DNA from: Cryobacterium adonitolivorans
Lineage (GTDB): Bacteria > Actinomycetota > Actinomycetes > Actinomycetales > Microbacteriaceae
Direction of reading: 5' to 3'
Length of the DNA stretch: 64,000 bases
Assembly (NCBI RefSeq): GCF_004402695.1
Contig: NZ_SOFL01000049.1
Span: 1 to 64,000 of the forward strand
Notes under the pieces: generated by a model
Databases searched by the model: none
Seen by the model: the letters and a program-made list of their open reading frames with translations, nothing else
Told to the model about the DNA's origin: nothing
In this document: piece after piece, positions 30,885 through 43,231 of the stretch
Layout of the letters: every line of letters starts with the position of its first letter
Numbering within the stretch: position 1 is the first letter of the stretch
Position numbers and translations under genes: made by a program

Positions 30885-30900
30885 CTCTGATCGATCAGAG
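30885..30900. terminator. 16-bp palindrome between convergent genes
   Basis: CTCTGATCGATCAGAG is a perfect palindrome lying between the stops of the VOC gene and the truncated sigma gene. It may act as a weak bidirectional terminator. Confidence 0.4.
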
Positions 30901-31407
30901 AGGAGGCTGCCGGGTCAGCAGCTCGCCGCGCACGCTCGGCAGCAGGGCCGAGCCACGCATCACGCCGGCGTCGGCCAGGCCGTCGACGATGAGCCGTGCG
31001 GATGCCGGACCCGTCGCCACGGCTACCTGGGCCTCGCGCGCCAGCACCGGGTGACAGGCGATGGACACCAGGCGCAGCACGTCGTCATCGATCGGCTGCC
31101 AGTCCTCGGGGCTCATGCCCTCGATGGTGCGCGCCGCCAGGTCGTGGGCGATTGCTCGGTACCTGTCATCGAGGCGCTCGCGCCGCCACCAGGTGTCGAT
31201 GGCCTTGCGCTTGGCGACGGCCGTGAGCCAGGCCCCAGGGTTCTGCGGGATGCCCGACTCCGGCCATTGCCTGAGCGCGTCGAGCACAGCCTCCTGGGCG
31301 AGATCCTCGGCCAGCACCACGTCGTTGGTCATCTTCGCGAGCGTGGCCACGATCCTGGCGCTCTCGATGCGCCAGACCGCCTCCACGGTGCGCCGCGCAT
31401 CGGCCAT
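30895..31407 (-). pseudogene. ECF sigma factor (DUF6596/SigJ-like) collapsed by an internal deletion
   Basis: The frame encodes 170 residues although members of this family have about 400. Residues 1-125 are normal sigma region 2 and linker (IVATLAKMTNDVVLAEDLAQEAVLDALRQWPESGIPQNPGAWLTAVAKRKAID...VLRLVSIACHPVLAREAQVA). The chain then jumps directly to a segment that in full proteins lies about 170 residues later (VATGPASARLIVDGLADAGVMRGSALLPSVRGELLTR) and stops. Region 4 (the -35 binding HTH) and most of the SnoaL/DUF6596 part are gone. It follows the YCII gene by 27 nt, the standard partner arrangement. Promoter recognition is unlikely. Confidence 0.72.
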
Positions 31408-31954: not shown

Positions 31955-32761
31955 TCAGCTCGTCAGGACCTGCCGCGTGATGGACCTCAGCAATTCTTCG
32001 CCGGCCAGGATGCCGCGCCTCGCGGTCACCTCGAGGTTGTGCCTCGTGAAGGCCGCGTCGTGCAGTTCGCCGTGCGCCGGGCGGAAGGCGAAGTGCGCCT
32101 CCTCCAGCATGCGCTGGTCGAGGAGCGAGTCGCCGGCGGCGAGCACCGTGGGTGCGCCGAGTCGGCGGTGCACCTCGGCGACAGCAGCGCTCTTGTTCAC
32201 GGCCTCCGGCACGCAGTAGAGCTTCCGCCCCTGCACGGATACCGTCCAGCCGAGCACCCGGCACTGCACGTGCAACGCGGCGATCCACTCCGCGGGCATC
32301 GCCTCACGGTCGATGATCGCGTAGCTGAACAGGTCCTGGGCGGTGTGTACCCGCACGATCCACGCCGCGGCGGCCGGGTCCTCGAGCAAGGACCTGACCT
32401 CGGCCAGCGGAGCCGCTTCCGCGCCCAACCGAGCCCGCAGGGAGCGTGACCAGACCGGATCGACCTCACCGTCGACCAGGATCGCGCCGCCGTTGGTGGT
32501 TATGGCGAAACGCGGGACTGGGCCCGGCAGCTGCACACGGCCGTACTGGGCCACGGTGCGGGTGGTGACCGGCACGAAGGTGGCCGCCGCGGCGAGCTCG
32601 AGCAGAAGCTGCTCGGCGGCGCGCGTCATGTAGGAGATCGGCACACCCTTGTAGACCTCGGAAACGACAATCGGGGGAGCCTGGGCGTCCGGCGTCTCGA
32701 GCCAGAAGGCGCGCGACGAGTAGATGAGCGTGCGGTCGAGGTCGCAGGCAACCAGGGGCAT
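31955..32761 (-). CDS. HAD-superfamily phosphatase of the Ter-cluster biosynthetic module
   Basis: This 268-residue HAD (Cof-like) hydrolase has motif I ACDLDRTLIY (nucleophile Asp6 and acid/base Asp8), motif II VTTRT, a cap around 90-190, Lys in NKSAAV (motif III), and motif IV AAGDSLLDQRML. It should remove phosphate from a small metabolite. It is the last gene of the minus-strand Ter biosynthetic set, where a HAD enzyme is predicted to dephosphorylate a nucleoside-like product. The ATG at 32761 is 5 nt after the StiP-like stop; a GTG at 32770 in a GTGA overlap is an equally good start and would add three residues. Confidence 0.85.
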   Translation of the reverse strand: MPLVACDLDRTLIYSSRAFWLETPDAQAPPIVVSEVYKGVPISYMTRAAEQLLLELAAAATFVPVTTRTVAQYGRVQLPGPVPRFAITTNGGAILVDGEVDPVWSRSLRARLGAEAAPLAEVRSLLEDPAAAAWIVRVHTAQDLFSYAIIDREAMPAEWIAALHVQCRVLGWTVSVQGRKLYCVPEAVNKSAAVAEVHRRLGAPTVLAAGDSLLDQRMLEEAHFAFRPAHGELHDAAFTRHNLEVTARRGILAGEELLRSITRQVLTS

Positions 32762-32766
32762 GACGG

Positions 32767-33924
32767 TCACTGGGCACCCGCAAGCCCATGGCCGGGCCGG
32801 ATGAGCCCGACGCAGCTGTACGGCAGGTCGGGCACGATCTCGATCGGGACGCCGCGCTGCTCGGCCAGCAGCAGCACGTGCGCGACATCCGCCACGGCAT
32901 CCGCCCGCACCAGCACCTTCCACGGAACCCGGCGCAACAGCACCCGGGTGGTTTCGCCGACTCCCGGCTTGACCAGGTTCACGTCGTTGATGCCGTACTC
33001 GGTGCTGATCTGCTCGACCGCCTTCCAGCCGACCCACGACGGGGTGCGGTCTTCTGCGTTCGCCGCCGCGACTCCGTCGGCGACGTCGTCCGCGACGTCA
33101 GGGAAGTAGCCGCAGACCGTGTCGAGAAAGTCGCGCGAGACGTCGTTGTGGCTCAACTCGGCATAGAACTTGGCGCCGTGGAACTCGTCTTCGCCGATCA
33201 GATCCCGGTTGAAGACGGTGCGGGACACGAGCCCGGACACCGTGGAGTTCAGGCAGGCGGACGGGATCAGGTAGTCCTCGCGAGTGCCGTGGATGGTGAC
33301 GCAGTGCCCAGGGTCGGCCAGTACCGCCAGGTCGTCCTTGAAGAACACGCCGTCGGTCTGGCTGAACAGGGCGATCGCCGCGGACAGTTCACGTGCGATG
33401 GCGCCCTTGCCGGTCCAGCCGTCGACGAAGATGACCTGCTGTGGATCGTGCTGGGCGGCGAGGTAGCGCAGGGCGGTCTGGTCGAGCCCCACGCCGCGCA
33501 CGATGCTCATCGTGTAGTGCGGCACGTCGATCCCGCGTGCGTGTTGGGCCCAACGCCGCATCAGGATGCCGATCGGGGTGCCGGCCCTGGCGAGGGAGAC
33601 GAACACCGGCCGGTCGCCGCGGGCGGCGAGGGCGAGGTCGGTGACGACGCCGACGGCGACCGCGAGCCGGCGGCCCGAACGTTCCAGGGCCTCACGGTAG
33701 AGCGCCTCGTATTCCGGCGACGGCAGGTACTCGATGGGCAGCGACTCGGCGTAATTCGCCGCCCCGCTCTGGATGGCGTGCTCGCGCTCCTCGGCCGGTG
33801 CCTCGAGGGCGGCGCCCTGCAGGTCCTGCAGCAGCCAGCTCACGTCCTCGGCGGCGTATGAGCCGAAGGCGGGGCCGCTGAGCGGGTGGGGCAGCACGGC
33901 CGCCGGAGGAATGGGGCTGGTCAC
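32767..33924 (-). CDS. StiP-like phosphoribosyltransferase-fold protein (Ter module)
   Basis: A 385-residue protein that I recognise as the 'cysteine protease StiP' family, which comparative genomics reinterprets as an orotate-PRTase-like domain followed by a PELOTA-type RNA-binding region. Seen here: ANYAESLPIEYLPSPEYEALY, VFVSLARAGTPIGILMRRW, QQVIFVDGWTGKGAIARELSAA (PRPP-loop position DGWTGKGAI), then FYAELSHNDVSRDFLD and a C-terminal VNLVKPGVGETTRVLLRRVPWKVLV. The start is GTG at 33924, overlapping the TRSP/PRTase stop (GTGA). The exact reaction is unknown; a glycosyl transfer using PRPP is predicted from the fold. Confidence 0.82.
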   Translation of the reverse strand: MTSPIPPAAVLPHPLSGPAFGSYAAEDVSWLLQDLQGAALEAPAEEREHAIQSGAANYAESLPIEYLPSPEYEALYREALERSGRRLAVAVGVVTDLALAARGDRPVFVSLARAGTPIGILMRRWAQHARGIDVPHYTMSIVRGVGLDQTALRYLAAQHDPQQVIFVDGWTGKGAIARELSAAIALFSQTDGVFFKDDLAVLADPGHCVTIHGTREDYLIPSACLNSTVSGLVSRTVFNRDLIGEDEFHGAKFYAELSHNDVSRDFLDTVCGYFPDVADDVADGVAAANAEDRTPSWVGWKAVEQISTEYGINDVNLVKPGVGETTRVLLRRVPWKVLVRADAVADVAHVLLLAEQRGVPIEIVPDLPYSCVGLIRPGHGLAGAQ

Positions 33925-35339
33925 GGGTTGGGTATCCCATCGGTGGGGGCGGACGCGGTCAGCAGCACGACCACGATGCGGTCGCTGACGCGGCGGAGGG
34001 TTTCGATCACGCCGTCGTCGCCGTCGAGCCCGGCGGGGTCGGTGCCGGGTTCCGGCATGAACACGACCGTGCCGAAACGGCGGCCGGAGGCGGTGAGGTT
34101 GTAGGCGAAGCGCACGCCCACGCCGTCGGAGGTCGTGTCGTGGCTGCGGAAGCGGATGGCGCTTCTGATGGGGTAGTCGGCGGCATCGAGCGCGGCGATC
34201 GGCGATCGGGTGCTGGTGGAGAACCTGACGGCCAGCGGCGCTGCGGCGCGCCCCAATTCGTCCGCGGTCAGCATCGGCAGGGCAATGAATTCTTCCGAGC
34301 CGAGGACCAGGACCCCCCGGTCGCCCGTGGCCGGCTGCCCGGTGGGGAGCAGGGCGCACACACGATCGGCGATCGCCGAAGCGACGCCGGCGTCCGTAGG
34401 TGCCGTGGTGCCGAACCGGGCGCTTCGCAGGGGCGAAAGGTCGGTGCAGTCGAGCAGGCTCACCTCTCCGCCGCCGGCAGCTGCCGGGGCGACGGTCGGC
34501 ATCGACGCGATCATCCGGCCGGCGCGAGGGAGCACGTCGGCGGGGAGCCCGATCGAGCCGGCGGCCAGGCAGACAACGGAAATGCGGGTGCAGAGCGTGG
34601 TGCCCAGCTGGTCGAAACGACCGAGATCGGCGGGGGACCGCAGGTCGATCAGGGAGGCGATCACCCAGTGCCGTTGCGGGATGAGCGCCTGGAGCGCCGT
34701 GATCGTGTTGATCACCGTGGTGCCGGTGCTCAGTTCGTCGTCGACCAGAATCGTCGTGCCGCCCGGGCGCAACCAGTGCGGGTCGGTCGGCAGCAGGGCA
34801 TGGTCGGTGGCGTGGGAGTGTTCCTCCGCGAAGCCGGCGAATGATGTGGCCCCGGCCGGCGCGTGCCGCGTCGAGTGCAGGTAGTAGGCGCCGAGGGCGT
34901 CTGCGACAAGCTGGCCGAGGCCGGTGGCCGTCTCGGCGTAGCCGAAGGTGACCACGCCGGGTTGCGGCGTTGTCGCGGCGCGGATGTCTCGGCGTAGGCC
35001 CGTGAGTTCGCGGTGGGCCTGCGCCAGGGTTTCCGCATCCGTCGAATCGGCGTTCTCGGCCAGCCGGGCCACCAGGACAGCGAATCGGTCGCCGAGTGCG
35101 CGCGCACCCCGATGGGCGCCGCCGCCGACGACGCCGGAGACGAGAAGACCGAGTAGTTCACCGGCCGCCAGGGCGATGCCGGGCACCGTCGGTACGTGTT
35201 TGGCGAGCACCGTGGAGACGAGCAGGTGGGCGCGCTTGGGGTTGTGGCGGAGGGCTATGCCGACGAGTTCGTCGACACCGAGGATGCTCCGGTCGTGATC
35301 GGTTTCCACGTGGATGTCGAGGGCTGTTGCCACCGTCAC
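33921..35339 (-). CDS. Phosphoribosyltransferase with TRSP domain (Ter module)
   Basis: A 472-residue protein with an N-terminal PRTase_2 domain (LVGIALRHNPKRAHLLVSTVLAKHVP, VVTFGYAETATGLGQLVADAL, and the PRPP-binding loop TTILVDDELSTGTTVINT). A C-terminal TRSP domain starts near 260 and runs through FMPEPGTDP. It is the second PRTase of the module. The GTG start at 35339 overlaps the stop of the aldolase-like gene (GTGA), and the upstream in-frame ATG at 35429 lies inside that gene. Together with the StiP-like, HAD and lyase genes it forms a tightly coupled four-gene set. Confidence 0.84.
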   Translation of the reverse strand: MTVATALDIHVETDHDRSILGVDELVGIALRHNPKRAHLLVSTVLAKHVPTVPGIALAAGELLGLLVSGVVGGGAHRGARALGDRFAVLVARLAENADSTDAETLAQAHRELTGLRRDIRAATTPQPGVVTFGYAETATGLGQLVADALGAYYLHSTRHAPAGATSFAGFAEEHSHATDHALLPTDPHWLRPGGTTILVDDELSTGTTVINTITALQALIPQRHWVIASLIDLRSPADLGRFDQLGTTLCTRISVVCLAAGSIGLPADVLPRAGRMIASMPTVAPAAAGGGEVSLLDCTDLSPLRSARFGTTAPTDAGVASAIADRVCALLPTGQPATGDRGVLVLGSEEFIALPMLTADELGRAAAPLAVRFSTSTRSPIAALDAADYPIRSAIRFRSHDTTSDGVGVRFAYNLTASGRRFGTVVFMPEPGTDPAGLDGDDGVIETLRRVSDRIVVVLLTASAPTDGIPNP

Positions 35340-36526
35340 CGCATGCTCGCTTCGAGGAGGTCGACGAAGGTGGTGGACTCCGAGGCGACACCGAAGGCCT
35401 GGGCGCGCAGCATCGTCTTGTGCGCCCACGCGGAGTGCGGCTTCGCCTCGTTCATCTTGTTGCCGTACGGGGACGCGCTCGCCCCTCCGCCGACGTTGCC
35501 CAGGATGACCGAGGCGTCGAGGAACTCCTCGTGGCTCACGACCGACAAGGCGTGCACAACCGACACATGGGTGGGATGGATCACCGTCTTGCCGAGGAGC
35601 CCGTTCGCCTGGTCGAGGGAGATCTCGCGGATCAGCCCGTCCAGGCCGCCGAGCATCAGCCGGTGGCGCAGGTCCCGCTCGTTGGCTTCGACGAACGGGG
35701 TGAGGCGCAGCTGCGGACGGAGGATGCGCTCGGTCGAGTAGTGCTCCCAGACGGTGCCGGTGATCACGAAACTGTCTTCGGACCGGCCAAGCACGTTCAC
35801 GATGTCGGAGATCACCGAGGCGACCACCTGCACGTCGTATACCGTGAGATCGCGGGAGCGGCGAAGCCCGAAGGCGCTGGACAGGTCGGTGGCGCCGATG
35901 CGCGCGGCCAGCACGTCGTCGCGGTTGTCGTGCAGGATCCTGCGGATCGAGGAGAGCGCCGAGGCGCGCGTTTCGCTGTGGATCATGCTCGGCGACTCGA
36001 GGATCGGCATCAGCCGCAGCCGCTTACCTCCCTGCGAGCCGTCGGCGCCGCTGTGGCGCTGGATTTGGCGGAGCGCGACGAAGAACGCCTCGGCATAGCC
36101 GGTTTCGTTCTCGAACTTGGGGACCACGAATCCGCTCAACAGTGCAAGGCCGGCTCCGCAGGCCTCGGCGACCCGCAACATCTGTTCGGGGGTGCGCACG
36201 CGCACGAAAAGCAGTGGGAGGTCGGTGTCCGGCTTGTCCACCGACAAGTGATGCAGCGTCCTGATCGCGTCGGCGACGTTGACCTCCGCGGCGGGCACGG
36301 CGCTGTCGGCGATGGCGTCCTCGAGACAGAGCACCATGCTGACGCAGCCGCGTGAGGCCTGTTTCACCACGTCTTTGGCGATTTTGGGCCGGTCGCCCGG
36401 GCAATAGAGCGTGGCACCGAGGAATGCGGCGAGCAGCGGTGCTGGCGAGTCGATCGCCACCTCCTGCGGCTGCCGGTGGAAGAGCTGAGTGGCCTGGGAG
36501 TTCTTCAGGAATCCAAAGTGGCGCAT
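35336..36526 (-). CDS. C-C bond lyase of the HpcH/CitE TIM-barrel type (Ter module)
   Basis: This 396-residue protein resembles citrate lyase beta subunit and HpcH/HpaI aldolases: ATLYCPGDRPKIAKDVV, VLCLEDAIADS (the metal-binding Glu/Asp strand), RVRTPEQM, LLSGFVVPKFENETGY, LMPILESPSMIH, RIGATDLSSAFGLRRSRDLTVYD and GKTVIHPTHV. The Ter-associated group is classed separately as C-C_Bond_Lyase. It probably makes or breaks a carbon-carbon bond in the precursor of the module's product. It begins the coupled four-gene set and lies 5 nt after the unknown disordered protein gene. Confidence 0.85.
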   Translation of the reverse strand: MRHFGFLKNSQATQLFHRQPQEVAIDSPAPLLAAFLGATLYCPGDRPKIAKDVVKQASRGCVSMVLCLEDAIADSAVPAAEVNVADAIRTLHHLSVDKPDTDLPLLFVRVRTPEQMLRVAEACGAGLALLSGFVVPKFENETGYAEAFFVALRQIQRHSGADGSQGGKRLRLMPILESPSMIHSETRASALSSIRRILHDNRDDVLAARIGATDLSSAFGLRRSRDLTVYDVQVVASVISDIVNVLGRSEDSFVITGTVWEHYSTERILRPQLRLTPFVEANERDLRHRLMLGGLDGLIREISLDQANGLLGKTVIHPTHVSVVHALSVVSHEEFLDASVILGNVGGGASASPYGNKMNEAKPHSAWAHKTMLRAQAFGVASESTTFVDLLEASMR

Positions 36527-36531
36527 GGTTC

Positions 36532-37290
36532 TTATCGGCTCCGGGACTCTCGCGTGACGACATGGGGGGTGAGGGTGAAACCGAACTGCTGGAGGATCGC
36601 GTCGTCCGACAAGGTGCGGTCGACCGGCTCGGCGCGCAACTCGATGAGGTTGCCGATCCTCAGGAGGTAGAGCACGAACATCCGCGAGTCATCGCCCCGA
36701 GCGGTCGTGACCGTGGACCCGTCGAAGATCTGCACGCCGAGTGGGTGTGGGCCGCGCGCGACGAACAACGCCCGGCGGAGTTCCTGCACGTGACGCAGGG
36801 AAACGACCGCGTCGGCCTCATCGAACCCCACGAGCGGCCGATTGCCGGAGGTCGTCACCGGGGTGCCGGCGAGGTCGCCGGCGGCGTTCGCTGAGCCAGT
36901 TACCCGGTCGGCGTCCTCCCACACCGCAACATCGGCGCCGCTGACGATGAGGCTGCCCACGGCGGACTCACGGGCGTTGAGCCGGAGGACCGGCTCGGAG
37001 TGGCCCAGTTCGCGGACATCATCGATCGTGGGGGCGGGGAAGGGGAGCGAGTCGGGCGAAACGACGGGCCGTGCCGCCGCGACGGGGGCCGTGCCGGCGG
37101 GTGACGCGGGGCCCGGCGTCGCGGGGGCGAGCGACAACCCGGCGGACGCTGCCCGGCGGGGTTCCGGCTCGGGCGCGGCATTCTCGGGTGCGGTGCTGAC
37201 CAGCGCGGCGCTCTCGGCCGCAGGCGCGGGCCTGACCCGCCTTCGCAGATACCCGATGTCGGTGCGCACCGGGGAGTTGTTCAGCGCCAC
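36532..37290 (-). CDS. Unknown Ter-cluster protein with disordered N-terminal half
   Basis: A 252-residue soluble protein. Residues about 15-90 are Ala/Pro-rich and look disordered. The second half (LVGFDEADAVVSLRHVQELRRALFVARGPHPLGVQIFDGSTVTTARGDDSRMFVLYLLRIGNLIELRAEP) is ordered beta/alpha. I do not recognise the family. A very divergent TerD-like beta fold is conceivable from the ADAVVSLRHV...FVLYLLRIGN spacing but unsupported. It is 3 nt from the degenerate terD gene upstream and 5 nt from the lyase gene downstream, so it links the sensor and biosynthesis halves of the operon. Confidence 0.6.
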   Translation of the reverse strand: MALNNSPVRTDIGYLRRRVRPAPAAESAALVSTAPENAAPEPEPRRAASAGLSLAPATPGPASPAGTAPVAAARPVVSPDSLPFPAPTIDDVRELGHSEPVLRLNARESAVGSLIVSGADVAVWEDADRVTGSANAAGDLAGTPVTTSGNRPLVGFDEADAVVSLRHVQELRRALFVARGPHPLGVQIFDGSTVTTARGDDSRMFVLYLLRIGNLIELRAEPVDRTLSDDAILQQFGFTLTPHVVTRESRSR

Positions 37291-37293
37291 CGG

Positions 37294-37845
37294 TCAGAGG
37301 TCGATTCGGAAATCGGCGGCGACACCGGCCAGGCCCGTCGAATAGCCCTGGCCGAGGGCACGGAACTTCCAGTCGTCGCGGTGGCGGTAGAGCTCGCCGA
37401 ACATCAGCACGTTGATGGTGCGATTCTCGCCGGCCGGGAGAACGAAGCGCACGAGCTCCCGGTTGTCGCCGGTGGCCACCCGCACATACGCCGAGCGCAC
37501 CGACGAAAAGTTGACGGCTCCACGCACGTCGGGGTCCACGTAGACGACGAACACGATCTTCGAGACGTCGGCGGGCACCCGCGCGAGGTCGACGTCGATC
37601 TCCTCGACGTCCCGGTCATCGCGGAAGCCGACCGAGCCATCCTGGCTGACGATCTGGTTGAAGAACACCAGGTGATCGTTGGAGAGCGACTTACCGTGCG
37701 CGTCACACAGAATGGCCAGGGGCACGAGCTCGGCCTGCGGCCCGCGGCTGGGGATGATCTCCCAACCGAAGCCGACCATCAGGTCGGTGAGCCCCGGATT
37801 CTCGGCGGTCAGGGCCGCGTTGGCCCCCGGGATCAGTGTGTTCAC
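37294..37845 (-). CDS. Divergent TerD family protein lacking canonical calcium ligands
   Basis: A 183-residue TerD-fold protein: LTDLMVGFGWEI, LSNDHLVFFNQIVSQDGSV, VSKIVFVVYVD, FSSVRSAYVRVATGDNRELVRFVLP, INVLMFGELYRHRDDWKFRALGQGYSTGLAGVAADF. In the other two paralogues the acidic motifs read DLDASA and GDGDDE, which bind Ca2+ in characterised TerD proteins. Here they read AELVPLA and DDRDVEE, so at least one calcium site is probably lost. It overlaps the upstream unknown gene by 4 nt. A structural or adaptor role is possible. Confidence 0.87.
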   Translation of the reverse strand: MNTLIPGANAALTAENPGLTDLMVGFGWEIIPSRGPQAELVPLAILCDAHGKSLSNDHLVFFNQIVSQDGSVGFRDDRDVEEIDVDLARVPADVSKIVFVVYVDPDVRGAVNFSSVRSAYVRVATGDNRELVRFVLPAGENRTINVLMFGELYRHRDDWKFRALGQGYSTGLAGVAADFRIDL

Positions 37846-38354
37846 GACCGTCCGTCCAGGGTGAGGGAGGGAGCCGCGAACTTATCGGCGAGGAAGCGCC
37901 CGTGAGTGGAGAGCTCCGCGATGGCACCGATGCGGATCTGGTTGAGCAAGTCGTTGATCGTCTCTTCGAGGATTCCGAGCTGGGCGGAGAACTGCAGGGT
38001 GGCGGCCGAGGTGTTCGTGCGTTCGCCCTCCGGCAGGGCCAGGAAGGAACGCAGCGGAGTCGGCAGGTAGTCCCGGATCATCGCGTCGAGCAACACGCGC
38101 TGCTCGGTCGAGGCGTTCTGGGCGGCCACCATCTCGATCACGACACGCAGCAGGTCGTCGATCTGCGCCAGCCTGGAGCTGAGTAGCGTGGGCAGCTCGC
38201 CGCCGGCGCTCCGCACGGCGGTGCGCAGGAGGTCGAGCGCGCGCGCCGTCGCCTCGTCCTCCGATTCCGCGGCCCGGGGCTCCGCCAGGACCGATGGCAT
38301 CTCCGGCGTCGCCGGACCCTTGAACAGCGAGTCTACGAACTTGCCGAATGCCAT
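37842..38354 (-). CDS. Unknown helical Ter-cluster protein
   Basis: A 170-residue, mainly helical protein with no signal or membrane segment: ATARALDLLRTAVRSAGGELPTLLSSRLAQIDDLLRVVIEMVAAQ, then LDAMIRDYLPTPLRSFLALPEGER and QFSAQLGILEETINDLLNQIRIGAIAELSTHGRFLADKF. The last part may form a coiled coil. I do not recognise the family. It lies between TelA (33-nt gap) and the degenerate TerD (4-nt overlap). The repeated association of unknown helical proteins with TelA suggests a partner role; this is inference. Confidence 0.65.
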   Translation of the reverse strand: MAFGKFVDSLFKGPATPEMPSVLAEPRAAESEDEATARALDLLRTAVRSAGGELPTLLSSRLAQIDDLLRVVIEMVAAQNASTEQRVLLDAMIRDYLPTPLRSFLALPEGERTNTSAATLQFSAQLGILEETINDLLNQIRIGAIAELSTHGRFLADKFAAPSLTLDGRS

Positions 38355-38387
38355 GCCCTCACCGTCCCCGTTGTATCGCCCGACTAA

Positions 38388-39590
38388 CTAGCGTAGCTCC
38401 CGCTGTTCGCCCTGCTTGCTGCGTTCCAGGTAGGGCTTGGCCTTCTGCAGCCCGACCTCGAGGGCCGTGACGGTGCCCTCCATGTTCTTGGCGGCGTCGG
38501 CGCGGAAGGTGTCGATGGCGTCCATGGTGGCGAACACGTTGTCGAAGGCCTTCTGCAGCGTCTCGACGCTCACCCCGGAGTTCGACGCCTGCTCGTGGAT
38601 GCGCACGGTCTGGTCCTTGAGCATCTCGCTGGTCTTGAGGATCATGTTGTTGGTGGTGGTGTTGATCGCGTCGATCTGGTCGAGCACCATCTTCTGGTTG
38701 GCCAGGGCCTGGGCCACGATGACCGCCGTGCGCAGGGCGGCGATGGTCGTCGTGCGCGCCCGGTCGACGCCCTTGATGAGTTCCAGGTTGTTCTTGCGGA
38801 TCAGGTCCATCGCCAGGTAGCCCTGCACCGATACCGCGAGCTGGGTGAGGATGTCCTGGTGGCGTTGGCGGATCGGGAAGAGCACGTCAGCCTCGAGCTT
38901 CTGCGCTTCGTCGATGCGGCCGGCCGAGCGTGAGGCGTCAATCTTCTCTACGGTGGCATTGTCCAGCGCCTTGGCAAAGACCGCGTACTCGCTCAGGGTC
39001 TGCATGGTCTCCCAGAGCTGCACCTTCTCACCGGCGAGCGACGCGTTGTCCTTGAGGAGTTCGTCCTGCCCGCTCATCAGCGACTTGATGATGGCGTCGA
39101 GCTGGGTCTGGGCGGACTCGTACTTCTGGAAGTACTTCGCCAGCTTGTTCCCGCCGGGGATGAAGCCCAGGATCTTGCGTCCCATTCCGAGGTCGGCGTC
39201 GTTCGGCGTCAGGTCTTCGACGGTCGAGCGCAGCTCGCCCAGCGTATTCGCCACGGTGATCTGCGCGCTGTTGCCGGTGCGCTTGGCACCGGCGACCGAG
39301 GTCGACGAGCGTTCCAGCATGCGGGTGGAGTAGCCGCTGGACTGCACCATCTCGGCGCCGGCGAGGGCCGAGATGCCCTCGATCTTGGCGCTGAACTCGG
39401 GTGTGCGCGGGTCGAGGGACGAGACATCCGCCACGAACTCGCGCGCCTGACGGGCGATCTCCTGCTGGCGCTCGGCCGGAACAGGAACCATGCCGGGTGC
39501 GTCGTCCGCCACCACGATGTCCGGGGCATCCGGTGCTTTGAGCACCAGCGCCATCTCGGAGGCGTCCGGGGGAGAGAGAGGTGAACTCAT
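38388..39590 (-). CDS. Toxic anion resistance protein TelA family
   Basis: A 400-residue TelA (KlaA) family protein, almost all alpha-helical with coiled-coil character: RQQEIARQAREFVADVSSLDPRTPEF, NSAQITVANTLGELRSTVEDLTPND, GRKILGFIPGGNKLAKYFQKYESAQTQLDAIIKSL, LAVSVQGYLAMDLIRKNNLELIKGVDRARTTTIAALRTAVIVAQAL. FIPGGNKLAKYF-QKYESAQ is the family's hallmark. TelA is linked to tellurite and other envelope stress; mechanism unknown. It lies 51 nt after a canonical terD gene. Confidence 0.93.
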   Translation of the reverse strand: MSSPLSPPDASEMALVLKAPDAPDIVVADDAPGMVPVPAERQQEIARQAREFVADVSSLDPRTPEFSAKIEGISALAGAEMVQSSGYSTRMLERSSTSVAGAKRTGNSAQITVANTLGELRSTVEDLTPNDADLGMGRKILGFIPGGNKLAKYFQKYESAQTQLDAIIKSLMSGQDELLKDNASLAGEKVQLWETMQTLSEYAVFAKALDNATVEKIDASRSAGRIDEAQKLEADVLFPIRQRHQDILTQLAVSVQGYLAMDLIRKNNLELIKGVDRARTTTIAALRTAVIVAQALANQKMVLDQIDAINTTTNNMILKTSEMLKDQTVRIHEQASNSGVSVETLQKAFDNVFATMDAIDTFRADAAKNMEGTVTALEVGLQKAKPYLERSKQGEQRELR

Positions 39591-39641
39591 GCGACTTCCT
39601 GTCTGATTCTGATTCGGCGGGCGGCGACGCGGGAGGGCCGG

Positions 39642-40220
39642 TTAGTCCAGTGAGATGCCGAAGTCGGTGGCGATGCCGGCGAGTCCGGAGGTGTAGCCCT
39701 GGCCGACGGCCTTGAACTTCCAGTCGGTGCCGTTGCGGTAGACCTCGGCGAAGAGCATGGCGGTCTCGGGTGCCGCGTCCTCGCTCAGGTCGAAGCGCAC
39801 GATCTCCTGGTCGTCCTGGTCGACGATGCGGCAGTACGCCCCGCGCACCTGGCCGAAGTTCTGGCGGCGTGCGTCGGCCTGGTCGATGGAGACGACGATG
39901 ACCACGCGGGAGACGTCGCTGGCCACAAGACGCAGGTCGATCGTGATCTGCTCGTCGTCGCCGTCGCCGGCGCCCGACCGGTTGTCGCCGAGGTGCACGA
40001 CCGACTTGTCTGCCGAGGCAGGCTGGTTGTAGAAGATGAAATCGGCGGAGGAACGCACCTTGCCGTTGTCGCCGACGAGGAGCGCGGAAGCGTCCAGGTC
40101 GAAGGACTCGCCGCTGGTCGTGCGCGGGTCCCAGCCGAGGCCGACCGTGGCGACGGTGAGTCCGGGGCTGACCTTGGTCAGCGAGAGGTTGTTGCCTTTT
40201 GCGAGTGTCAGACCTGCCAT
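39642..40220 (-). CDS. TerD family calcium-binding stress protein
   Basis: A 192-residue TerD: MAGLTLAKGNNLSLTK start, VGLGWDP, SFDLDASALLVGDNGKV, FIFYNQPASADKSVVHLGDN, GAGDGDDEQITIDL, VVIVVSIDQADARRQNFGQVRGAYCRIVDQDDQEIVRFDLSEDAAPETAMLFAEVYRNGTDWKFKAVGQGY. Both acidic calcium motifs (DLDASA and GDGDDE) are intact. It is a cytoplasmic beta-sandwich that binds Ca2+ tightly and is associated with tellurite/oxidative stress tolerance. It lies between another TerD gene and TelA. Confidence 0.95.
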   Translation of the reverse strand: MAGLTLAKGNNLSLTKVSPGLTVATVGLGWDPRTTSGESFDLDASALLVGDNGKVRSSADFIFYNQPASADKSVVHLGDNRSGAGDGDDEQITIDLRLVASDVSRVVIVVSIDQADARRQNFGQVRGAYCRIVDQDDQEIVRFDLSEDAAPETAMLFAEVYRNGTDWKFKAVGQGYTSGLAGIATDFGISLD

Positions 40221-40278
40221 GGGAATTGTCTCCTTGTATGCATGATGTGGGTGAACGAGCCGTGCGGTGGGGCGCGGT

Positions 40279-40869
40279 TTAGAGGACCTTCGCCGCCGCA
40301 GTGAGCAGGTCCATGGCCGAACGGCCGGTGGCGCGCTCTCCGATGGCCTTGAAGGTCCAGCCGGTGCCGTCGCGGGACACCTTCGACATGATCATCGCGG
40401 TGTGCGGGCCGCTGTCGGTCAGCTGGTAGCGGGCGACCTCGGGGGTGCCGGCTGAGGAGTCGTCGACGAGGCGGCTGAACGCGTTCTGGACGGCGTCGAA
40501 GGTCTGCTGGCTGTAGCTGCTGATGACGAAGACGATCTGCGAGACCGCAGCGGACACCTTGGTGAGGTCGACGAGGATCGTTTCGTCGTCGCCATCTCCG
40601 GCCCCGGTCAGGTTGTCGCCGGTGTGGCGGGTCGATCCGTCCTTGCTGCTGAGCTGCTGGAACCAGACGGTGTCGAGAACCTTGCCGGAGGCGTCAAAGA
40701 AGATCGCCGAGGCGTCGAGGTCGACCTCTGGTGCCTTGCCGCGACCGAACAGTCCGCGCTTGACGGGGGCGGCGCTGTCCCAACCGAGGCCCATGCGGAC
40801 CTTCGAGAGGTTGCCGCCATCCGCCTTGGTCAGCGAGAGCGACTGGCCCTTTGACAAGCTCAAACCCAT
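40279..40869 (-). CDS. TerD family calcium-binding stress protein
   Basis: A 196-residue TerD paralogue with GLSLSKGQSLSLTKADGGNL, VRMGLGWDS, a short insertion (KRGLFGRGKAPE), VDLDASAIFFDASGKV and GAGDGDDETILVDL, so the calcium motifs are intact. The C-terminus (ARYQLTDSGPHTAMIMSKVSRDGTGWTFKAIGERATGRSAMDLLTAAAKVL) diverges from the usual AxxFGI ending. It is the first gene of the minus-strand ter operon after terC; 58 nt separate it from the next terD. Confidence 0.94.
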   Translation of the reverse strand: MGLSLSKGQSLSLTKADGGNLSKVRMGLGWDSAAPVKRGLFGRGKAPEVDLDASAIFFDASGKVLDTVWFQQLSSKDGSTRHTGDNLTGAGDGDDETILVDLTKVSAAVSQIVFVISSYSQQTFDAVQNAFSRLVDDSSAGTPEVARYQLTDSGPHTAMIMSKVSRDGTGWTFKAIGERATGRSAMDLLTAAAKVL

Positions 40870-40959
40870 TGTGTACTCCTTCGTATGACGTTTTGTGTTG
40901 GTCAGCGCCAGTGCGCGCCCAGTCTAGAGGCCGCCGGCACGGAAAATCCTGTATGGAGC

Positions 40960-40995
40960 GGGCGGCGAGACGGCTACAGCCGCGAGTCGCCGCCC
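40960..40995 (-). terminator. Nested hairpin downstream of terC
   Basis: Perfect 9-bp outer arms (GGGCGGCGA / TCGCCGCCC) enclose an inner 5-bp stem (CGGCT/AGCCG). It starts 19 bp past the terC stop and probably separates terC from the terD operon. Confidence 0.55.
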
Positions 40996-41013
40996 ACTCC
41001 TGGGTGTTTGTTA

Positions 41014-42195
41014 CTACTTCGCGAAGCTGCTGTGTGCTTCGTGCGCCTCGGCGAGCAGGGCCTGAAGTTCTACGTCTTCGGCGGCACCAGCCTGGTGCTT
41101 GGGGGTAAGCAGGCCGAGAGCGCGCTCGTGGGCCACGACGAGTGCGTAGGTCTCGTCGCGGGTCTCACCCTTGCCGCTGAAGTCGCCGGTCAGGTACTTC
41201 TTGGCCGATCCCTTGCTGAGCGCGATCGCGCTGTGCGCGCGACCGGCCGGGCTGACGAGCGAGGCGACAACGGTGACCGCGAGAACACCGATGATCACGG
41301 CGAGCGAGAGGCCGGTGCTGATCTCGAAGACCGGTACGTGCTCGCCTCCGTTGATGAACGGCAGCGTGTTCTCGTGCAGGGCATGCAGCACGAGCTTGAC
41401 GCCGATGAAACCGAGGATCGCGGCCAGGCCGTAGCTGAGGTAGATCAGGCGGTCGAGCAGGCCGTCGATGAGGAAGTAGAGCTGACGGAGGCCCATCAGC
41501 GAGAACGCCGTCGCGGTGAAGACGATGTAGACGTTCTGGGTGAGACCGAAGATCGCGGGCACGGAGTCCAGCGCGAACAAGAGGTCGGTTCCACCGATGG
41601 CGACCATGACGAGAAGCATCGGCGTCATGACCTTCTTGCCGTTCTCCATGGTGAACAACCGGTCGCCGTCATAGCGCTCGGTGGTGTGGAACAGGCGCTT
41701 GGCGAGCCGGATGATGAAGTTGTCGGCCTCGTCGCTCTCGGCTTCAGGCTTGAGCAGCTTGACCGCGGTGTAGATGAGGAACGCGCCGAACAGGTAGAAC
41801 AGCCAGGCGAACGAGTTGATCAGCGCCGAGCCGAGGAAGATGAACCCCGTGCGGGCGATCAGCGCGAAGACGATGCCGAAGAGGAGCACCTTCTGCTGGT
41901 CGGCGCGGGGCACCTTGAAGCTGGCCATGATGATGAGGAAGACGAAGAGATTGTCGACAGACAGCGCCTTCTCGGTGATGTAGCCGGCGAAGTACTCGGT
42001 TCCCAGCGTGCCGCCGCCGAAGAAGAGAACGCCGAGCCCGAAGACGATCGCGATTCCCACATAGATGGCGGACCATTTGGCGGCCTCGGGGAGGGTCGGC
42101 TCATGCGCCTTGCGCACGTGGAAGAAGAAGTCGAAGGTGAGCAGGGCGACGATGCCGAGGATCGTGAGGAGCCAGACGTATCCGGGTATGTCCAT
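41014..42195 (-). CDS. TerC family integral membrane protein
   Basis: A 393-residue membrane protein with about nine hydrophobic segments and the TerC/Alx signatures EKALSVDNLFVFLIIM (near 94-109) and GGTDLLFALDSVPAIFGLT (near 200-218). The two Asp residues in these motifs are linked to metal (manganese) export in Alx/MeeF/MeeY proteins. A soluble C-terminal tail of about 80 residues follows. In Ter systems TerC associates with TerD and TelA at the membrane. It is divergent from a MarR gene, with two palindromic sites in the 150-bp region between, and no yybP-ykoY riboswitch pattern is seen there. Confidence 0.94.
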   Translation of the reverse strand: MDIPGYVWLLTILGIVALLTFDFFFHVRKAHEPTLPEAAKWSAIYVGIAIVFGLGVLFFGGGTLGTEYFAGYITEKALSVDNLFVFLIIMASFKVPRADQQKVLLFGIVFALIARTGFIFLGSALINSFAWLFYLFGAFLIYTAVKLLKPEAESDEADNFIIRLAKRLFHTTERYDGDRLFTMENGKKVMTPMLLVMVAIGGTDLLFALDSVPAIFGLTQNVYIVFTATAFSLMGLRQLYFLIDGLLDRLIYLSYGLAAILGFIGVKLVLHALHENTLPFINGGEHVPVFEISTGLSLAVIIGVLAVTVVASLVSPAGRAHSAIALSKGSAKKYLTGDFSGKGETRDETYALVVAHERALGLLTPKHQAGAAEDVELQALLAEAHEAHSSFAK

Positions 42196-42228: not shown

Positions 42229-42250
42229 TTAGTTGGGGTCGCCCAACCGT
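42229..42250. promoter_or_regulatory. MarR-type operator 1 next to terC
   Basis: TTAGTTGG-N6-CCAACCGT, an imperfect copy of the palindrome at 42287-42310 with the same 6-bp spacer; the centres are 59 bp apart. It lies 34 bp before the terC start codon. Confidence 0.6.
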
Positions 42251-42286
42251 TCGCATGCCTACCGAAAGGTAAGGTAGCTCCACTAT

Positions 42287-42310
42287 ATTAGTTGGGTCCG
42301 TCCAACTAAT
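42287..42310. promoter_or_regulatory. MarR-type operator 2 between terC and the MarR gene
   Basis: A perfect inverted repeat with 9-bp arms (ATTAGTTGG / CCAACTAAT) and a 6-bp spacer, in the size range of MarR operators. On the minus strand TATAGT (42288-42283) adjoins it and could be the terC -10 element. Confidence 0.72.
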
Positions 42311-42345: not shown

Positions 42346-42840
42346 ATGGTGCACAGCCGGGAAACCCCTCCAACGGTGGGAGAGGCCCTGGAATCGGCCC
42401 TGTCGACGATCTTCCGCTGGTCGACGCGCGCCGACAACAAGCGGATGCTGCACGATTCGACCGGCGCCGCCCTCTCCAGCACGGACTCCTGGTTGCTGGA
42501 ACGCGTCGTGGTCGCCGGGCCCCTGCGGATGTCGAAGCTCGCGGGCTGGATGGCGGTCGACAAATCCACCATGACAACCGAGATCCGGCGGCTGGAAAAA
42601 TCGGGGCTGGTGAGTCGGCGATCCGATCCGACCGATCGCCGCGCCGTGCTCATCACCGCGACGGAAGAAGGTCGTACTGCAATCGCCCGGCACCGCCAGC
42701 TCGCCCAGGGCGTCTACGAGACCCTGGTCGGCAAATGGACGGAAGAAGACCGCACCGAGTTCTCGCGGCTGCTCGGCCGCTTCGTCGACGAGCTCTCCTG
42801 GGTGACCGATGCGGTGGCCCGGCACAACGAGTCGATCTGA
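42346..42840 (+). CDS. MarR-family transcriptional regulator
   Basis: A 164-residue MarR protein with a winged helix at about 45-110 (AALSSTDSWLLERVVVAGPLRMSKLAGWMAVDKSTMTTEIRRLEKSGLVSRRSDPTDRRAVLITATEEGRTAI, with the wing DPTDRRA). It should bind the palindromes in the divergent region as a dimer and repress terC and itself. The signal is unknown; no conserved Cys for redox sensing is present. It is convergent with the fluC genes. Confidence 0.92.
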   Translation: MVHSRETPPTVGEALESALSTIFRWSTRADNKRMLHDSTGAALSSTDSWLLERVVVAGPLRMSKLAGWMAVDKSTMTTEIRRLEKSGLVSRRSDPTDRRAVLITATEEGRTAIARHRQLAQGVYETLVGKWTEEDRTEFSRLLGRFVDELSWVTDAVARHNESI

Positions 42841-42853
42841 CCGGTGCGCTGGG

Positions 42854-43231
42854 CTACCCGCCCAGGCCCAGCCACAGGCCGAAGAATGAGCAGCCCACCG
42901 AGAGGGCGAGCATCCCGAACCCGTTGAACAGTGCGGAGAGGGAACGACGATCCTGCGCCAGTCGCACGGACTCGTAACTGGCGGTGCTGAAAGTGGTGAA
43001 ACCACCCAGCAGGCCGCCGCCCAGCACGAGGTGCCATGCCCCCGGCAGCCAGAGCGCCAGGGCGAGCCCGGTGATCAGGCCGAGCAGCAGGGAGCCCACC
43101 ACGTTGATGAGCAGGGTGCCGACCGGCAGTGCCGTGCGCACCCGGGCCCGCACGCCGCCGTCGACGACCAGCCGCAGGGTCGCGCCGAGACCGCCCGCCA
43201 GCGCCACGGCGACGAAGAGCACCGGGGTCAT
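42854..43231 (-). CDS. crcB: Fluoride channel subunit (FluC/CrcB)
   Basis: A 125-residue protein with four hydrophobic helices. Hallmarks are GGLGATLRLVVD, LLINVVGSLLLGLITG (channel Asn) and GGGLLGGFTTFSTASYE (central sodium-site loop and Phe/Thr track). It exports fluoride. It overlaps the other fluC gene by 4 nt; Gram-positive genomes often need two Fluc proteins that form a heterodimer. Confidence 0.94.
   Translation of the reverse strand: MTPVLFVAVALAGGLGATLRLVVDGGVRARVRTALPVGTLLINVVGSLLLGLITGLALALWLPGAWHLVLGGGLLGGFTTFSTASYESVRLAQDRRSLSALFNGFGMLALSVGCSFFGLWLGLGG

Follow-up and report, generated by a model that had tools for sequence, protein, structure and literature searches.

A probable TelA-containing Ter stress cassette with a shared linear motif and a predicted nucleoside-metabolite module in Cryobacterium adonitolivorans

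The DNA analyzed here (the window) is a 64,000-nucleotide stretch of contig NZ_SOFL01000049.1 from Cryobacterium adonitolivorans, and between positions 31955 and 42195 it carries eleven minus-strand open reading frames (ORFs) that join Ter proteins to a set of putative biosynthetic enzymes. In order, these encode TerC, two TerD proteins, TelA, a helical protein (Hel), a degenerate TerD, a protein with a disordered linker (Dis), a C-C bond lyase, a phosphoribosyltransferase (PRTase)-TRSP protein, a StiP-PELOTA protein and a HAD phosphatase. All eleven lie at the position and on the strand where a first-pass annotation of this DNA had placed them, and Pfam provides a clear family name for eight of their products. 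Together with the neighboring regulatory elements, the features are as follows (PRPP, phosphoribosyl pyrophosphate):

42346-42840, plus strand: marR, a divergent MarR-family regulator and probable terC repressor (Pfam MarR, 3e-13)
42231-42309, no strand: two palindromes TTGG-N6-CCAA, at 42233 and 42292, conserved in terC upstream regions
41014-42195, minus strand: terC, Alx-type metal-homeostasis membrane protein (PF03741, 4e-51; TIGR03718 above cut-off)
40953-41001 (approximate limits), minus strand: hairpin 3' of terC, possible terminator or attenuator, no U-tract (-40 kcal/mol)
40279-40869, minus strand: terD1, canonical Asp-rich calcium site kept (PF02342, 7e-47)
39642-40220, minus strand: terD2, canonical Asp-rich calcium site kept (PF02342, 2e-76)
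38388-39590, minus strand: telA, with the motif ALVLKAPDAP at residues 14-23 (PF05816, 5e-85)
37842-38354, minus strand: Hel, helical TelA partner with no Pfam family, C-terminus SLTLDGRS
37294-37845, minus strand: terD3, degenerate TerD (Pfam TerD, 4e-45)
36532-37290, minus strand: Dis, disordered linker (residues 1-88) with a GLSL motif and a TerD-like domain (about 90-240), from an AlphaFold2 model and fold comparison
35336-36526, minus strand: C-C bond lyase, HpcH/CitE-like TIM barrel (PF15617, 1e-109)
33921-35339, minus strand: PRTase_2-TRSP protein, PRPP loop LVDDELSTGTT (PF15609, 1e-54; PF12500, 2e-21)
32767-33924, minus strand: StiP-PELOTA protein, predicted PRTase-fold domain and L7Ae-like domain (StiP, 4e-101; PELOTA_1, 3e-36; AlphaFold2 model)
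31955-32770, minus strand: HAD-IIB-type phosphatase, the last gene (TIGR01484, 1e-6, below its cut-off; motifs)

The last four genes are packed as first described, with 4-nucleotide GTGA overlaps at the lyase/PRTase, PRTase/StiP and StiP/HAD junctions, and the Hel and TerD3 genes share a 4-nucleotide overlap too. The same first-pass annotation had called the Ter cluster complete, a description that goes too far: the best match in the genome to the Ter ATP-grasp model PF15632 reaches 23.6 bits against a cut-off of 29.1, and the protein is hence not found there. This match sits in a 1250-residue frame of a kind present in nearly all genomes searched, which is probably CarB. Because most other module-bearing genomes are also without one (PF15632 exceeds its cut-off in only 5 of 25, the window's genome and 24 others), we treat the Ter ATP-grasp as optional rather than defining. 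TerB, TerF and TerY are not among the genes of the eleven-gene block, and a scan of ten cassette proteins (all except TerD2) matched none of the PADLOC anti-phage families.

The arrangement of the block is strikingly constant. A scan with Hel alone yielded 39 named loci, and in 39/39 the TerD proteins, TelA, Hel, TerD3, Dis, lyase, PRTase, StiP and HAD follow one another in the same order, with one locus (L131) cut by a contig end and another (L150) frameshifted. These loci fall within the Microbacteriaceae and Micrococcaceae and represent the genera Cryobacterium, Glaciihabitans, Subtercola, Plantibacter, Herbiconiux, Frondihabitans, Frigoribacterium, Curtobacterium, Arthrobacter, Paenarthrobacter, Pseudarthrobacter and Sinomonas. 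A separate retrieval of TelA-bearing loci within the family gave the same block order, in part from genomes already among the 39, and such an order is far from chance. StiP itself is found in 69 of 296 genomes of the class, 25 of 398 of the family and 2 of 10 members drawn from the genus. In a comparison set of 45 loci, made up of the window and 44 relatives, the lyase, PRTase, StiP and HAD genes occur together without exception. PRTase and StiP are a single fused protein in 17 of the 45, and 22 also carry TelA, Hel, TerD3 and Dis. The Dis and lyase genes, which link the two halves, are separated by only a few bases in most loci. All cassette genes are under purifying selection relative to four Cryobacterium relatives, with ratios of nonsynonymous to synonymous substitution (dN/dS) of 0.02-0.31. 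Trees of TelA with the TerD proteins and of lyase with StiP and HAD recover identical genus-level groups, and the two halves of the cassette therefore largely share their history. Separately, in a further family (L117 and contig C302 of genome G069), StiP and TelA-Hel-TerD genes lie within about 4 kb of each other on opposite strands.

Of the four enzymes, StiP bears a Pfam title, "cysteine protease," that its predicted structure puts in doubt. The AlphaFold2 model (predicted local distance difference test score 85, predicted template modeling score 0.88) supports a PRTase fold joined to an L7Ae-like domain: residues 72-267 resemble PyrR/HGPRT phosphoribosyltransferases (best Z 9.5, PyrR-type, 147 residues, 3.9 Å), and the C-terminus resembles RNA-binding proteins of the L7Ae/YbxF type (Z 8.8, YbxF). 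The earlier label of a StiP-like PRTase thus agrees with a predicted fold. The StiP and PRTase_2 profiles have no detectable sequence similarity, so this fold is drawn from the model rather than from the sequence, and sequence searches for solved relatives of StiP, PRTase and lyase returned none except weak L7Ae matches. Whereas the PRTase_2 protein conserves a canonical PRPP loop, StiP conserves FVDGWTGKG instead of hhhhDDxxxTGxT, and we therefore call it PRTase-fold and regard its PRTase activity as only putative. Were the Pfam title correct, the module would be a regulated protease with accessory enzymes instead of a two-PRTase pathway, for which the invariant Cys224 within PSACLNST and the conserved His residues could be cited. 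We consider this very improbable, given that the model matches PyrR, HGPRT and L7Ae folds with no protease among the matches listed, that a conserved D168...T171-G172 is located where the PRPP loop would be expected, and that Cys224 falls in a low-confidence loop of the model, where it could still be catalytic. The HAD protein is weak by profile (HAD-IIB, 1e-6), yet its catalytic motifs (D10xD12xT14, T69/T70, K193 and G213-D214...D218) are at least 97% conserved.

The Ter half holds a further TerD-type domain that profiles do not see. Dis had been described as disordered, which stands for residues 1-88 but fails for the C-terminal half, where about residues 90-240 of an AlphaFold2 model form confident beta structure. 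In a VIA-align comparison the top match was SCP2 (chain 9a6r_B, Z 11.4), which we take to be a TerD-family protein of Bacillus, followed by TerD of Streptomyces (3ibz, Z 9.3, 124 residues, 3.2 Å) and of Klebsiella (2kxt, Z 7.0); the entry ranked after these is unrelated, at Z 5.2. A Foldseek search with the same model gave no significant match, Pfam TerD (PF02342) recognizes 0 of 39 Dis orthologues, and kinship of Dis with TerD3 by sequence was rejected (hhalign probability 0.4%). As modeled, the C-terminal half of Dis is TerD-like in fold, but no TerD by profile. In TerD3 orthologues the second Asp of DLD is replaced and most of the acidic GDGDDE loop is deleted. Since Dis appears TerD-like in fold and TerD3 has lost the residues just named, we count two canonical (TerD1 and TerD2) and two degenerate (TerD3 and Dis) TerD-type domains in the cassette.

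Hel, judged by its sequence and occurrence, is a conserved TelA partner without a Pfam family. Neither the window's Hel nor the ten homologues scanned matched the PF10112 (XpaC/Halogen_Hydrol) profile, and Hel is probably not XpaC; hhalign to an XpaC protein gave a weak alignment (probability 2.3%, E 0.02). Elsewhere, two Hel-like proteins (L114, L118) have hydrophobic N-terminal segments that are probably membrane-spanning, with no TelA in the fetched neighborhood, and an Arthrobacter plasmid (L168, 7977-9185) carries a lone TelA that is 75% identical to that of the window, with no TerD or Hel annotated nearby. Among annotated phage genomes none with TelA was found; viral contigs supplied two TelA loci and two StiP loci.

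A short motif of the L-x-L-G type is common to the TelA N-terminus, the Hel C-terminus and the Dis linker. TelA has ALVLKAPDAP near its start, Hel ends in SLTLDGRS or GLTLGGR, and in most loci GLSL, GLDL or GLTL, with G, A, R, S or H as the next residue, occurs between one and four times in the Dis linker; L52 and L54 of Dis are at least 90% conserved within an otherwise variable linker, and in one Paenarthrobacter linker a unit containing the motif is repeated in tandem, with four nearly identical copies. Observed sites exceed those in shuffled tails (25 vs. 0.4 for TelA, 22 vs. 1.4 for Hel and 42 vs. 1.4 for Dis), a comparison in which the motif was defined after inspection of the sequences and the shuffles ignore their relatedness. 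In TelA-Hel loci of other families (L106-L119; Hel identity 31-39%), TelA has SLDLGG-like and L-x-L-x-PP stretches close to its N-terminus, Hel has DLDL or similar at its C-terminus, and the long linker of the next TerD contains as many as five S[AP]LDLG-like copies. Where TelA is present, TerD and Dis linkers hold 7.0-9.5 motifs per 1000 residues, against none in 1857 residues of TerD linkers from TelA-free loci and one in 8404 residues of control PRTase and StiP linkers from the same cassettes. Because TelA-free TerD linkers are devoid of a motif that is dense in TelA-linked proteins, the motif appears to follow TelA and not TerD. The opposite arrangement, in which TerD is the hub and the motif docks on TerD domains as an added beta strand in imitation of their own N-terminus (GLSLSKG), draws on the starts of TerD1 and TerD2 (MGLSLSKG and MAGLTLAKG), which show the same pattern, and on the presence of TerD proteins in every such operon. 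We think it rather unlikely, as the Pro/Ala-rich TerD linkers of TelA-free loci are those in which the motif is missing, and L-x-L is present even in TelA proteins whose surroundings have no annotated TerD.

At the other end of the cassette, terC has features of its own. An Alx-type TerC heads 16 of the 39 Hel loci, with a divergent marR beside it in 16/16, and 18 of the remaining loci are headed by DUF475, a TerC-superfamily protein. Of 17 terC upstream regions, 14 contain a strict TTGG-N4-7-CCAA palindrome, against a mean of 0.17 and a maximum of 2 after shuffling. In the window, no gap separates the palindrome at 42292 from a TATAGT (-10-like) box, and such a box is conserved after the palindrome in most loci that carry one. 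Alx-type TerC relatives are often under riboswitch control; an Rfam search for riboswitches ahead of this terC found none. Behind terC lies the strong hairpin listed above, with hairpin-like sequence at the same place in several relatives. Given its own operator and this hairpin, terC may be a separate, MarR-controlled unit. The first-pass annotation is right in outline, and its view of eleven linked genes survives in part: the order from the terD genes to the HAD gene is invariant, but a single mRNA for all eleven became doubtful once the hairpin and the terC operator came to light.

The cassette is also modular, and its chromosomal site is variable. On Curtobacterium plasmid D40 (L169, 3292-13164) and on an IMG/VR contig (L161, 4841-16595), an alternative Ter cassette retains the DUF475-TerD-TerD-TelA-Hel-TerD3-Dis half, with dNMP (deoxynucleoside monophosphate)-kinase-like, AAA_33 and Thg1-like genes in place of lyase-PRTase-StiP-HAD and a DNA methylase inserted after TelA. 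The two are nearly the same sequence and therefore amount to one example, which leaves it that the scaffold may serve different nucleotide chemistries. Two other Cryobacterium genomes share the flanking genes up to about positions 42860 and 31950 of the window, with a CrcB pair and a histidine phosphatase on one side and YCII and a sigma factor on the other. The site between them holds a TetR gene in 1.6 kb (L165, 3073-4662) in one and, in the other, 4.6 kb with a LysR gene and a PutA-type proline dehydrogenase (L166, 2686-7261). From these alternative contents between shared flanks we conclude that the site is variable and that the cassette, marR included, occupies it as a discrete unit of roughly 10.9 kb. 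The window's sigma-factor gene (30895-31407), which adjoins the YCII gene, is without several hundred base pairs present in three Cryobacterium relatives; the alignments break at 31022/31019, and it looks internally deleted.

We read this locus, with a probability of roughly 0.6, as a MarR-associated, TelA-containing Ter stress cassette in which TelA is a scaffold that holds TerD sensors beside a nucleoside-metabolite pathway. Its steps are given here in order of falling confidence. The last four genes would form one pathway: a carbon skeleton, prepared or trimmed by the C-C lyase, or else a base, would be joined to PRPP by one or both PRTases, and removal of a phosphate by the HAD enzyme would free a nucleoside-like compound. 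The PELOTA domain of StiP may bind RNA. TerC would move a divalent metal at the membrane, with TerD1 and TerD2 as sensors that bind Ca2+ or metal. TelA would be the scaffold, and the motifs of TelA, Hel and Dis would all dock at a single site, for which TelA or Hel is the likeliest location because the motif follows TelA rather than TerD; the degenerate domains of TerD3 and Dis would be adaptors and not sensors, recruited to the complex controlling or receiving the metabolite. Finally, MarR would repress terC until relieved by stress.

Several observations weigh against this reading. The motif was defined after the fact, as noted; the Hel of the plasmid variant is without it; and betaproteobacterial TelA proteins from Sphaerotilus and Variovorax plasmids, with no TerD annotated nearby, have L-x-L near the N-terminus, so that TelA's own motif may serve another purpose. 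The StiP loop departs from the PRPP consensus, and other actinomycete families keep the enzyme module without TelA. This last point, along with the absence of Hel and Dis there, would equally suit two functionally uncoupled systems at one locus, TerC/TerD/TelA for envelope stress and, downstream, a nucleoside pathway independent of it, as would the module-free TelA-Hel-TerD3-Dis half of the Curtobacterium plasmid and viral-collection contig and the hairpin between terC and the remaining genes. Such independence seems unlikely, however, for halves that are adjacent in all 39 Hel loci, are joined in most by a Dis-lyase gap of a few bases and have congruent trees.

If the scaffold reading is extended, TelA-type Ter systems in general would be built on a multivalent L-x-L-G motif code, carried by TelA, Hel and TerD-like adaptor linkers, that assembles a membrane-proximal complex coupling metal or Ca2+ sensing to exchangeable nucleotide-chemistry modules. 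We offer this tentatively and hold it to be possible though doubtful; if true, the exchangeable modules would be nucleoside-metabolite synthesis on chromosomes and a DNA methylase with nucleotide kinases on plasmids. Hel as a TelA partner, the TerD-like domain of Dis and the motif common to TelA, Hel and Dis were absent from the first-pass annotation. The conserved block and shared motif provide a concrete, mutable hypothesis that links Ter proteins to the enzyme module, with a likely role for two conserved proteins that have no Pfam domain (Hel and Dis) and a predicted fold for one, and the short tag in three proteins suggests how the cassette's parts assemble.

How does the cassette stand among known systems? 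The expectation that such a Ter cluster makes a nucleoside-like metabolite, also voiced in the first-pass annotation, fits the prediction that published comparative genomics has made for Ter biosynthetic modules, as cited in two papers (PMC7824862, PMC8115787). Our literature search found no report identifying the module's product, as that annotation had likewise stated, and no description of this variant, the Dis fold or the shared motif, the founding paper of 2012 being represented there through its citations. The enterobacterial ter operon carries TerZ, TerA, TerB, TerE and TerF and is not known to include TelA. As terZABCDEF of K. pneumoniae and E. coli, it shares TerC and TerD proteins with the present cassette, which has TelA, Hel and Dis instead, and is tied to tellurite, phage and colicin resistance (PMC12054061). 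The TelA-free actinomycete Ter modules (L080-L099, L104) have the lyase, PRTase-StiP (often fused) and HAD, mostly beside TerD genes, but TelA, Hel and Dis are absent from the 18 kb retrieved, and the TerD linkers of these modules are motif-free. The Curtobacterium plasmid D40/IMG/VR variant resembles the cassette from its TerC-superfamily DUF475 through Dis and differs in its DNA methylase, dNMP-kinase-like, AAA and Thg1-like genes. Closest are the Ter-dependent stress response systems with a nucleoside-like biosynthetic module that Anantharaman, Iyer and Aravind reportedly defined in 2012. With these the cassette shares TerC, TerD and TelA, the PRTases, the PELOTA domain, the C-C lyase and the HAD phosphatase; it differs in having no Ter ATP-grasp found in its genome, in the constant presence of Hel and Dis, both without a Pfam family, and in the shared L-x-L motif and the MarR operator on terC. 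The kind of system has accordingly been known since 2012, and what appears to be new is this variant of it, with the fold of Dis and the shared motif.

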